Part shown: in pieces, positions 24,985-29,176 of the stretch
How the letters are laid out: each line of letters starts with the position of its first letter
How positions within the stretch are numbered: position 1 is the first letter of the stretch
NCBI GenBank assembly: GCA_016342495.1
Contig: JAEIOG010000033.1
Location: 1 to 46,900, forward strand
Direction of reading: 5' to 3'
DNA length: 46,900 bases
Source of the DNA: Phycisphaerae bacterium
GTDB lineage: Bacteria > Planctomycetota > Phycisphaerae > Sedimentisphaerales > SM23-30
Notes under the pieces: model-generated
What the model saw: only the letters and a program-made list of their open reading frames with translations
What the model was told of the DNA's origin: nothing
The model's database searches: none
Made by a program: the position numbers and the translations under genes

Positions 24985-26622
24985 TTAGTATGCGCTCCAG
25001 AGCCAGTTATTAGCAAAAACGATGAAGTCCTGCAGGTCAACGACCCCATCTTCATTAAAGTCGCATTTGTTGGTATTAGTTAATGATTTGCTGGCTTGGG
25101 ATGTTCCGCCATAGGCTCCCATGTTAATACGGTGCCCATTAGGTTTTGGCTCGTTTGAGTAATCCAGTTCAGGTTCACCTGTAGCAATGCATGGACTTGA
25201 TTTCTGATCTTTTATCCAGATTTGCTTGAAAAGTTTTTCAGTATAATAAATGCCGTCTGGATTAAAGGCTAGGTCAAAGTAAATTCTATCTTGTGATGGG
25301 TTCACATATAAAGGGATGTCTGGGATGGAATTACATGTAGGATAAATGATTTGATTAACATTGCTAAATAGGTGATTTCGTGTTGGACGTGTTGCTTTGA
25401 AAATATTGAATCTGTGAGGATTAGACCATTTTGTTGTTGTAAAGTATATAGATAAGCCATCTTGGCTAATAAACGGAAAAGAATCACAGTGGTCGGTATT
25501 TAATTCATCTAATGGTCTGATGTTACTGAAATTATCGTCAATTGAATCTCTTGAGGCAGTCCATAGATTGTGGCTTAATTTAGAACCTGGTTGAGTGCTA
25601 TTCCAAATAATTTCTTTTTCATCATAGGTTAAAGAGAACATTACTGGCCCATCTTCATAGTTAAAACCGCCTATAGACCTAGTATGTTCCCATTGTTGAG
25701 TTATTTGATTAAAAGTGGCCATTTGTAACTCACTTCGCATTGTATCTTTTTTATAATATAGCCTATTGCCATCGGCTGATATCCATGGAAAATGGATCGA
25801 ATCGCCTTCAAAAATTTCCATAAGTGGTCGCTGGGTGCTGAAAGGTTCGTTGATGCTATTGCGGCGAGCTTCAAAAACACATAATTTATATGTATCTTCG
25901 TATTGAATCCATTTAATGTAGTAAATTTTAAGTTCATCGGCTGTGAGTCTGCCTTCTCTGGCGTAATTACTTTGCCCTTGAACCATTTCATTTAATTCCC
26001 TTAGCATTATAGGTTCGGACCAGCCTGTATTTTCAATACGATCAAAATGACCTACGGTAGATTGAAGTCTGAAGTTGAGGCTTTCGGCATCAACAAATAG
26101 GGGATTTTCATGGATGTTTCCCTGACCGGGGTAGCCTTGTTCTGTACGGCTATAGATTGCCTGACAATTTTCCATGTCGAAATTATTATTAGCAAAAATA
26201 CAGCTGGTGATTTTAGGATTAGCCCCATTGGATGCCCGGATACCGGCATAATTATGATAAATTGTGAGGTTTTGCAGTATAGGAGAGCTGTTCTTACACC
26301 ATATACCGCATAAACTGTTTGTGACAATAATATTTTTAATTACTGAATTAGTAGATTGAGCATCCAGAAGTGCTATGGCAATTTTGTTTTGGCCATCAAT
26401 CATAGCCGCCTGGTCGTTGCCTGCAATAGTAAGTGATTTGTTAATAATATGTATGTTTTCAAAGAATTGTACTGGGTCAAGTAAAATGGTATCTCCATCT
26501 GATGCTGCGTCGATGGCAGCCTGGATGGTTTTGGTTGCTCTGGAGGGCCCAACATGGATGGTGTCGGCATAGCACTGGATGGCAAAACTGAAAAAGATCA
26601 CAAGAGAAAGTAGTTTTTTCAT
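24985..26622 (-). CDS. Secreted beta-helix protein with propeller insertion and dockerin-like tail
   Basis: 545 residues. A Sec signal peptide (MKKLLSLVIFFSFAIQCYA) is followed by a right-handed beta-helix: TIHVGPSRATKTIQAAIDAA, ILLDP, then NosD/pectate-lyase-like coils up to ENPLFVDAESLNFRLQS (about 185). Residues about 195-470 are WD40-like propeller repeats (ISADGNRLYYKKD, ISQDGLSIYFTTTK, LTYDEKEIIWNST). The chain then returns to the usual end of the beta-helix unit (SSPCIATGEP...RINMGAYGGTSQASKS). It ends in a one-loop dockerin-like tail, CDFNEDGVVDLQDFIVFANNWL, with the DxNxDGxVxxxD calcium loop. It is probably secreted and attached to a cell-surface or extracellular partner. No catalytic residues could be assigned. 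Confidence 0.85.
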   Translation of the reverse strand: MKKLLSLVIFFSFAIQCYADTIHVGPSRATKTIQAAIDAASDGDTILLDPVQFFENIHIINKSLTIAGNDQAAMIDGQNKIAIALLDAQSTNSVIKNIIVTNSLCGIWCKNSSPILQNLTIYHNYAGIRASNGANPKITSCIFANNNFDMENCQAIYSRTEQGYPGQGNIHENPLFVDAESLNFRLQSTVGHFDRIENTGWSEPIMLRELNEMVQGQSNYAREGRLTADELKIYYIKWIQYEDTYKLCVFEARRNSINEPFSTQRPLMEIFEGDSIHFPWISADGNRLYYKKDTMRSELQMATFNQITQQWEHTRSIGGFNYEDGPVMFSLTYDEKEIIWNSTQPGSKLSHNLWTASRDSIDDNFSNIRPLDELNTDHCDSFPFISQDGLSIYFTTTKWSNPHRFNIFKATRPTRNHLFSNVNQIIYPTCNSIPDIPLYVNPSQDRIYFDLAFNPDGIYYTEKLFKQIWIKDQKSSPCIATGEPELDYSNEPKPNGHRINMGAYGGTSQASKSLTNTNKCDFNEDGVVDLQDFIVFANNWLWSAY

Positions 26623-27017
26623 AATCGAAACTCCCTAAATTTTGAAAACAAGTAAAATTTGTCACTAAAAACTAAAACGAAATCGTACTGTCGATATTCA
26701 ATTATAACAATTATATCAGAAATATCTACATATTTTCTAGTAAAAATTTTCTAGGTGGCCCCATTTATTAGTATTGTCAGGGTGGATGTTAAGGGTAAAT
26801 GGGCATAAATCACAGCTTATCCACATCGAAAAGGATAAATTTGACTTTATTTTATTTCAAATTGTCAATTGTCAGCTAAAGAAAAACTCAAGTAATGACC
26901 GATAAAAATTCTAACTCTTATGGGACTAATATGCTCATAAAATAACGAAATTTAGCTAATATTGGGCATTGCAAAGGCCGATAAAGTTATTAGGTTATTG
27001 AAATAGAGATAAATGAT
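26623..27017. other. AT-rich intergenic region
   Basis: Divergent region between the beta-helix gene (-) and the candidate RNA/TolB-like gene (+). It contains an 8-bp inverted repeat (CCCATTTA at 26760-26767, TAAATGGG at 26796-26803), a repeated TTTTCTAG, and one perfect TTATCCACA (26817-26825). Promoters for both sides must lie here but none is clear. Confidence 0.45.
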
Positions 27018-27155
27018 ACTGTCTTTGATCTTTCAACTGTCTGGCCGACGGTTGAATTAAGTGTTTTATACGCTTAAACCAGGACGCGCAACCCCAAAAG
27101 GTCAAAGATGGTAGAATTAAATAACGTAAAGCTGCCGAACAGGATGTTCGGCAGC
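27018..27155 (+). ncRNA. Candidate structured RNA in the leader of the TolB-like gene
   Basis: A closing 14-bp helix pairs 27018-27031 with 27099-27112. Inside it are a 10-bp hairpin (27032-27041 with 27047-27056, loop TGGCC) and an abutting 7-bp hairpin (27057-27063 with 27071-27077). A 21-nt single-stranded GC-containing linker follows. After this three-way junction comes a 10-bp hairpin (GCTGCCGAAC 27131-27140, GTTCGGCAGC 27146-27155). Five of the pairs are G-U when read on the + strand and would be A-C mismatches on the other, which favours a + strand transcript. CTGG at 27041-27044 could also pair with CCAG at 27079-27082. The structure lies 108-245 bases before the TolB-like start. I recognise no known riboswitch class. 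Confidence 0.45.
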
Positions 27156-27262
27156 GTATGGAAAAAACAACGGATCCACGTTGCAAAGCATGAAGCGCAC
27201 AACGCCGGAGTAGCACGACAAAGAATCATTTTTGCAGATGTTTCTTTGCAAAGGTTTGGAAA

Positions 27263-28396
27263 TTGAAAACCACACGTGCAATAATAAGGATCGTATTACT
27301 GGCATTAATGGCTGGCTTGGCAGGTTGTTCATGGGTATCCCAGCAATTTGTAAGCAAAGATGACGGCCCAAATATTGTCAAGGCATCGGTAAGGGTAGGA
27401 GTCAATGGTGACGTTGACGGTGCCTGGGAAAATGTCGATTACGCATCCACATCTCCATTTGCTTCACTTAGCCAACATAGTTTTTGCCAGGAAGGCGGGG
27501 ACTATGACCCTGTTGTCAGTAAAGATGGCAAGATGCTGGCTTTTTGCTCAATGCGACGGACTCCGAATCCTGATATTTATATAAAGGCTGTTTCTGGGCG
27601 TACTGCAACGCGGTTAACATCTGATCCTGCCAGTGAAATTCAGCCTTGTTTTTCACCTGATGGCACAAAAGTAGCTTATGCGGCTAACCGCAGTGGCAAC
27701 TGGGATATCTGGATTGTCGATGTCAATGGTCGTAATCCTATGCAGGTAACTGATGATGTCAGTAGCGATATTCATCCTTCATTTTCCCCAGATGGGAAAT
27801 TTATGGTATACAGCTCGCTGAGCCCGCGTACAAACCAATGGGGCCTGTGGATAGTCAGTGTCGATAATCCCAGTTTGAAAAGATGGATAGGCTATGGCCT
27901 ATATCCTGAATGGAATCCAAACCCAAAAATTAACAAAATAGCTTATCAGCTTCCTCGTTATCGAGGCAGTCAATGGTTTAGTATCTGGACTGTTGATATT
28001 GTCGATGGCGAAGCTTTGCATCCTACTGAAATCGCTACCGCTCCTAACAGTGCCTGCATTACCCCTTCGTGGTCACCGGATGGCAAAAAAATTGCATATT
28101 GTTCGGTCAGTAGTGCGATATATGAAAAAGAAGCCATGGAAAAGAATAAAAACAATATAAATGCAGCTGGTGAAGATATCTGGGTGATTGACCTTGATGG
28201 CTATAATAATGTTCGTTTGACAGGAACTGATGCTTCTGATTTTTCACCCACCTGGTCGCCTGATGGGAGAGTATTTTTCTGTTCGGATAGAAAAACAATT
28301 GATAATGTCTGGTCGATCAAGCCACAAGGCGTTGATTTTAATGTCACAGAGCCTGTGGAAATCAGCACTGCTGCTGCGGGTTTAAGTGCTAACTAA
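27263..28396 (+). CDS. TolB-like beta-propeller lipoprotein
   Basis: 377 residues. The start is a TTG with AAAGG about 8 nt upstream; no ATG is available. A lipoprotein signal peptide ends in the lipobox LAGC (Cys22). WD40-like/PD40 repeats fill the rest: SKDGKMLAFCSMR, FSPDGTKVAYAANRSGNWDIWIVD, FSPDGKFMVYSS, WSPDGKKIAYCS and WSPDGRVFFCSD. These are the blades of TolB-type propellers, periplasmic partners of the Tol-Pal envelope system. The N-terminal TolB domain seems short or absent and lipidation is unusual for TolB, so it may be a TolB-like relative. The CsgG/LpoB-like gene follows 48 bases later. A candidate structured RNA precedes it. Confidence 0.8.
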   Translation: MKTTRAIIRIVLLALMAGLAGCSWVSQQFVSKDDGPNIVKASVRVGVNGDVDGAWENVDYASTSPFASLSQHSFCQEGGDYDPVVSKDGKMLAFCSMRRTPNPDIYIKAVSGRTATRLTSDPASEIQPCFSPDGTKVAYAANRSGNWDIWIVDVNGRNPMQVTDDVSSDIHPSFSPDGKFMVYSSLSPRTNQWGLWIVSVDNPSLKRWIGYGLYPEWNPNPKINKIAYQLPRYRGSQWFSIWTVDIVDGEALHPTEIATAPNSACITPSWSPDGKKIAYCSVSSAIYEKEAMEKNKNNINAAGEDIWVIDLDGYNNVRLTGTDASDFSPTWSPDGRVFFCSDRKTIDNVWSIKPQGVDFNVTEPVEISTAAAGLSAN

Positions 28397-28444: not shown

Positions 28445-29176
28445 GTGAATAGAGTAAACGGAAAAAAAGTTGTCGAGCTAAAAAGGTTCAAATTTATTTG
28501 TGCCCTGGCTATGCTGATGGCATTTGCTGGCTGTCCTAAGCCACAGAGCAATTATCGCAGCCCTTATTATCCGCGAACCTGGAATGTAGCGATTGTTCCT
28601 TTTATAAATCATTCCGGATCGATAGCTATCAATCCTTTAGCATTGACCGATAGTTTTTTTACGGAATTGCAGATGGCCGATAGAGTTGAAGTTGTCGCTG
28701 TCAATAGAGTTTTGGCGGCAATGGAACATCTGAAGATGAATTCAATCGAATCTCCGGCAGATGTATCACTGTTAGCACAGGAATTACAGGTAGATGCGGT
28801 TATTGTTGGCGAGGTAATGGGTTATGACCCTTATAAGCCACCAAGGATTGAATTGCGATTGCAAATATATGAAAAGCCTGAGCTAAATAATCAGGTACCA
28901 GTTGGCGTTAATCCTGGTGAGATAGCCCGTGCAGGAACAACTTTTATTTTAACGCCGGGTTATCAGCTGAGTCCTTCCCGGCAGGTTAGTCGGATATTTG
29001 ACGCTGATAGGAAAGACGTGATTGATAAAATAAAAGCTTATGCAAAAGCTTATAGCGACGAGAATGACCCTGCTGGCTGGGAAGCTTATCTTACCAGTCA
29101 AAAATATCTCAGGTTTACTTCTTATGTATTAGTGGGTGATGTGCTGGAAGAAATTTCCGCGATGCATCCGAACTGA
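28445..29176 (+). CDS. CsgG/LpoB-like lipoprotein
   Basis: 243 residues from a GTG start, the only start before the signal peptide. The lipobox is FAGC at about residue 30. The mature part has TWNVAIVPFINHSG, a strand-loop typical of CsgG/LpoB/GNA1162-type periplasmic domains. ALTDSFFTELQMADRVEVVA, LAQELQVDAVIVGEVMGYDPY and IELRLQIYE follow in the fold's order. Such proteins sit in the outer membrane or periplasm and act as channel subunits or activators of cell-wall enzymes; the exact role here is not known. It lies between the TolB-like lipoprotein gene and a small gene, with gaps of 48 and 17 bases, so all three probably form one operon. Confidence 0.68.
   Translation: MNRVNGKKVVELKRFKFICALAMLMAFAGCPKPQSNYRSPYYPRTWNVAIVPFINHSGSIAINPLALTDSFFTELQMADRVEVVAVNRVLAAMEHLKMNSIESPADVSLLAQELQVDAVIVGEVMGYDPYKPPRIELRLQIYEKPELNNQVPVGVNPGEIARAGTTFILTPGYQLSPSRQVSRIFDADRKDVIDKIKAYAKAYSDENDPAGWEAYLTSQKYLRFTSYVLVGDVLEEISAMHPN

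Follow-up and report, generated by a model that had tools for sequence, protein, structure and literature searches.

The Campylobacter jejuni flaA leader (PMC4894983) belongs to a flagellar-regulon mRNA, carries two GGA-loop stem-loops with compensatory changes, and is found alongside csrA and fliW. In the Bacillus subtilis hag leader, a CsrA site lies over or near the ribosome-binding site and FliW is the antagonist, and in the Escherichia coli iraD leader, on which CsrA acts via an upstream short ORF, there are several GGA sites (both PMC7652899). Repeated GGA in hairpin loops is also found in the RsmX/RsmY/RsmZ and CsrB/CsrC small RNAs (Rfam, e.g. RF02144). FliW has been proposed as a CsrA antagonist in Planctomycetes as well (PMC4682653).

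Features of these systems are seen or predicted at a locus in a Phycisphaerae bacterium of the Sedimentisphaerales (GCA_016342495.1, contig JAEIOG010000033.1, positions 1-46,900; these 46,900 nt are termed the window). There, 26876-27262 would comprise the promoter and 5' leader of a TolB-like lipoprotein operon (Table 1), and it is with moderate confidence that we read it as an mRNA leader controlled by sigma28 and by CsrA-FliW, with CsrA binding predicted. The leader is new as a described element; the kind to which it would belong, the CsrA-controlled leader, is already known.

Table 1. Features of the leader and operon in the window
Feature	Position	Strand	Basis
Box 1, probable sigma28-type promoter, CTAAAG-N16-ACCGATAA	26876-26905	+	leader alignment
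TTATGGGAC element (TTATRGGAC)	26918-26926	+	counts in leaders and upstream of flagellin genes
Box 2, probable second sigma28-like -10 element, AAGGCCGATAAA	26974-26985	+	leader alignment, L139
Three-way junction, private to the window genome	27017-27113	+	RNA fold and pair list
Closing helix of junction, 16 bp	27017-27032/27098-27113	+	pair list
First inner hairpin of junction, 9 bp	27033-27055	+	pair list
Second inner hairpin of junction, 8 bp	27057-27077	+	pair list
Junction linker, 20 nt, with AGGA at 27081-27084		+	pair list
H_A hairpin, GCUGCCGAAC[AGGAU]GUUCGGCAGC, apical-loop GGA, proposed CsrA site	27131-27155	+	covariation, model match
H_B, degenerate counterpart, GUUGCAAAGCAUGAAGCGCACAAC, loop UGA (GGA in relatives)	27180-27203	+	alignment
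Hairpin immediately 5' of the ribosome-binding site	27219-27248	+	inverted repeat and fold
Shine-Dalgarno AAAGG, GGA 27258-27260 within the ribosome-binding site, TTG start codon	27250-27265	+	sequence, ORF
TolB-like beta-propeller lipoprotein gene	27263-28396	+	PD40 repeats, TolB structures, orthologs
Second operon gene, conserved lipoprotein without a family	28445-29176	+	adjacent in orthologous loci

The operon and its probable promoter region

The structured region sits within a 640-bp gap preceding the TolB-like gene. PD40 repeats are detected in the TolB-like protein (E 1.6e-37), TolB structures also match it, and 10 orthologs, 53-65% identical, are found in the same family. For the product of the second gene, Pfam and PDB gave no match above chance; among flagellar and peptidoglycan factors already known, it comes closest to LpoB, a very weak match that was rejected (E 0.07). 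The product contains an AVVPF.NQSG motif. On the complementary strand, a divergent gene (24985-26622) has a product with a parallel beta-helix, PD40 repeats and, at its C-terminus, a dockerin-like segment (DFNEDGVVDLQDF).

Because a DNA similarity search for relatives with the leader returned only the window, orthologs were sought via the TolB-like protein, and a repeat of that search in another genome collection gave an identical set. The 11 leaders so assembled all come from Sedimentisphaerales metagenome-assembled genomes of one family. Their elements follow the order TAAAG-N16-GNCGATAA box, TTATRGGAC, AAGGCCGATAAA box, H_A and H_B.

The first box, as TAAAG-N16-[GA]NCGATA, is present in 8 of the 10 aligned leaders and in a held-out leader described below. 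Boxes of the TAAAG-N15/16-GNCGA type also lie upstream of flagellin 3 in four genomes and of fliD in two, and the window genome encodes FliA (TIGR02479, 250.5 bits, above the cutoff). The E. coli sigma28 consensus is TAAAGTTT-n11-GCCGATAA (PMC2859248). Set against a promoter of this class, with a TAAA -35, a GCCGATAA -10 and fixed spacing, the leader boxes read TAAAG-N16-GNCGATA, their spacing exceeds that at FliA sites of E. coli by 2 nt (PMC2859248), and genome-wide the pattern shows no enrichment; for these last two reasons their assignment as sigma28 promoters is only probable. A transcript from box 2 would start near 26990.

TTATRGGAC occurs in 9 of 10 leaders and in the held-out one. DNA upstream of the TolB-like genes has 10 copies in 6 kb, of which one, in L008, is on the opposite strand. 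Counting either strand, the 700-nt regions ahead of 12 flagellin genes contain 11 copies, where shuffled sequence has 0.15; across 174.5 kb of other loci the background is 5, with one TolB-like and one flagellin locus among them. As genome-wide regulon markers, CGATA-N-TTATRGGAC and TAAAG-N16-GNCGAWAA were both rejected, neither being enriched over reversed-pattern controls, and only upstream-region counts are used here for that reason.

A private junction and two GGA hairpins

On the + strand, 27018-27155 folds with -54.0 kcal/mol (RNAfold). Dinucleotide shuffles average -30.6 (sd 3.4), which gives z = -6.98, and 0 of 200 equal it in stability. The - strand gives z = -3.8, a large share of which is due to the palindrome at 27131-27155. 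The structured leader RNA is real and strand-specific, as proposed by a first-pass annotation, which had placed it in the operon's 5' leader. That annotation was also right that the helices are uninterrupted and that the junction has five non-Watson-Crick pairs, G-U on the + strand and A-C on the other (27020-27110, 27021-27109, 27029-27101, 27038-27050 and 27062-27072). Its closing helix and two abutting inner hairpins exist, with lengths corrected by the pair list from 14, 10 and 7 bp to 16, 9 and 8 bp, and the further 10-bp hairpin that it described can be drawn with either 11 bp and a GGA triloop or 10 bp and an AGGAU loop. A loop/linker pseudoknot pairing is weak, consisting of UGG (27042-27044) with CCA (27079-27081) only, if the loop-closing pair is kept shut.

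One reading would make the junction a cis-regulatory RNA conserved among relatives, possibly a riboswitch of a new class; in the first-pass annotation, conservation of the helices in relatives was the test set for the structure. The fold is certainly very stable and strand-specific, and L008 has a hairpin with an identical GUC[UGGCC]GAC tip followed by UUAAG, which is possibly a partial relic of the junction. However, a model of the junction searched against 40 genomes matches the window alone, with 0 matches in the 39 others, and among the orthologous leaders nothing else matches but the opposite strand of the window itself. The interval from box 2 to H_A contains no structure common to the leaders, and its length is just 21 nt in L006 and 66 nt in L014 (about 100 nt in most leaders, and 146 nt in the window, junction included). 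Its helices, present in this one sequence, were not found in relatives, and the riboswitch view is now highly improbable; of the helices annotated, it is the fourth hairpin, 27131-27155, that is conserved with covariation. The junction is a lineage-specific addition, private to the window genome, and 5'-end stabilisation or the display of its own AGGA would be a guess at its role.

Known families offer no assignment either. Scanned against Rfam, the window has no match at gathering score, and permissive thresholds give chance-level matches only, in agreement with the earlier remark that the fold fits no nameable riboswitch class; a known riboswitch or other Rfam family was rejected on this ground. 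A tRNA/tmRNA search of the window found none.

The hairpins downstream are a different matter. All 10 orthologous leaders, from the same family, retain H_A or a counterpart, and 9 fit the model. Across the 10 aligned leaders the loop GGA of H_A is invariant and the stem covaries, and about 48 nt 3' of it most leaders have a second GGA-loop hairpin, H_B. RNAalifold predicts both unprompted from a MAFFT alignment fitted to no structure. In that alignment (10 sequences), 85% of cells are paired, against 69.8% in column shuffles (0 of 500) and 50% after a one-column slide, and 16 cells are changed on both sides of the stem, against 4.9 expected. A table compiled by hand gives 69 of 69 pairs, with compensatory changes at all seven positions, provided that L007, L008 and L014 may contain single bulges or small internal loops; these bulges were the author's choice, and the MAFFT count is thus the safer figure. 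In the ten leaders GGA is the commonest of the 64 loop trinucleotides, with 18 GGA-loop hairpins against 3.5 in shuffles (sd 1.8, maximum 10), a fivefold enrichment. The paired changes show that both hairpins are conserved at the RNA level.

A model built from nine leaders matches 27124-27213 at E 8e-12, the window's sequence being in its training set. The same model recovers the held-out leader (E 2e-8) at the end of C134, a contig of genome G011. This contig overlaps by 87 nt the one with the G011 TolB-like gene; the latter breaks off 151 nt before the protein match. Both boxes and TTATGGGAC are present in the held-out leader. In 59 genomes no other locus scores better than 1e-3, and L008, which is differently arranged, gives no match. 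As a repeated operator, the 25-bp palindrome at 27131-27155 was rejected, there being one copy in the genome.

In 7 of the 11 genomes (L005/L139, L007, L009-L013), the leader stays open, in the reading frame of the gene, for about 50-75 codons from an AUG that follows GGAG. This frame is possibly a leader peptide or N-terminal extension, and H_A and H_B may lie in translated RNA in those genomes; the window leader has merely an 11-codon ORF at 27158-27193. It could be that the hairpin region is conserved as coding sequence, as the open frame and the comparison of L012 with L013 (0 of 17 changes at codon position 2) might suggest. Yet the window, L006, L008 and L014 have interrupted frames and still keep the hairpin or a GGA hairpin, the compensatory changes track base pairs and not codons, and the lipoprotein signal peptides start further downstream, all of which makes a coding explanation very unlikely.

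CsrA and FliW as predicted regulators

Because the invariant part is the loop GGA, the conserved feature points to CsrA and not to a ligand. The window genome encodes a CsrA (PF02599, 90.6 bits) with the VHR..Y RNA-binding strand and an extended C-terminus, and csrA adjoins fliW and three flagellin genes. A leader under CsrA control is expected to expose GGA in a short hairpin's apical loop, to have two or more sites that a dimer could span, and to place one of them at or near the Shine-Dalgarno sequence. The first of these is seen at 27131-27155, where the loop, ACAGGAUGU, resembles the CsrA SELEX consensus RUACARGGAUGU (PMC7652899). A second GGA hairpin is present in most relatives; in the window other GGAs are present, and the strongest partner site is less certain because the H_B loop reads UGA. 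The GGA at 27258-27260 lies between AAAGG and TTG, outside any conserved hairpin.

Elsewhere, the flagellin 3 mRNA has a hairpin, CUUGUC[ACGGAG]GAUAAG, over its Shine-Dalgarno sequence, identical in four genomes (L094-L097). It is likely a CsrA site, of the type seen as ANGGA in the flaA leader of C. jejuni (PMC4894983).

In the model that we favour, transcription would begin at one or two sigma28-type (FliA) flagellar promoters, from predicted start sites, and the stable hairpin would display its loop GGA (27142-27144), with further GGA sites downstream, including that at the ribosome-binding site. By binding to the hairpin and to another GGA, CsrA dimers would block or modulate translation, both the binding and the sign of control being predictions. 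FliW, released in flagellar assembly, would lift this control, and expression of the lipoprotein operon would be coupled to the building of the flagellum.

It may instead be that another agent, such as a different RNA-binding protein, the ribosome or an antisense RNA, reads the GGA hairpins, as CsrA binding is predicted and the co-occurrence of promoters with flagellar genes is no proof. An invariant apical-loop GGA on freely varying stems, together with csrA/fliW and a similar flagellin hairpin, is however the textbook CsrA pattern, and such an agent has a low probability.

A further alternative accepts CsrA and changes the purpose: the leader could serve chiefly as a CsrA sponge, for which the flaA leader, which titrates CsrA (PMC4894983), is a precedent, or as a processed CsrB-like RNA. 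Each leader has 5-12 GGAs (ten leaders have 79 in total, their shuffles 57), and 27127-27247 gives a weak full-length rsmX-like match of 18.4 bits. The gathering score for rsmX is 56, though, no terminator-like site was found on the + strand between hairpin and gene, the majority of leaders have one or two strong GGA hairpins at most, and the leader is invariably attached to the tolB-like gene. A CsrB/RsmX-type small RNA was rejected on the first two of these points, and a mainly titrating role is unlikely. Also improbable is a dual leader, both regulated by CsrA and a sponge for it, which would tie an outer-membrane lipoprotein operon to flagellar assembly, the junction adding a lineage-specific layer of control.

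Comparison with described systems

To our knowledge, CsrA has scarcely been studied beyond Proteobacteria and Firmicutes, and a literature search for CsrA targets in Sedimentisphaerales found no work. The covarying GGA-hairpin leader and its flagellar-type promoter offer a concrete, testable CsrA-FliW target in these uncultured bacteria, and would tie the TolB-like lipoprotein operon, otherwise uncharacterised, to the flagellum. There is also a more general lesson, that a striking fold in one genome may be private while the conserved signal adjoins it.

The RsmX- and CsrB-type RNAs are stand-alone, whereas the window leader, for all its GGA sites, is not. The hag leader (PMC7652899) precedes another gene and has another architecture, and the control that it exemplifies is only predicted for the window leader. 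As for iraD (PMC7652899), several GGA sites are shared, and 7 of the 11 relatives have an upstream frame near the hairpins; the iraD upstream ORF overlaps its gene, whereas that of the relatives is in frame with theirs. The flaA leader (PMC4894983) belongs to a flagellin gene, measures 45 nt and has its second site over the Shine-Dalgarno sequence; that of the window belongs to a TolB-like lipoprotein gene and extends over about 270 nt, with its CsrA binding predicted from sequence.
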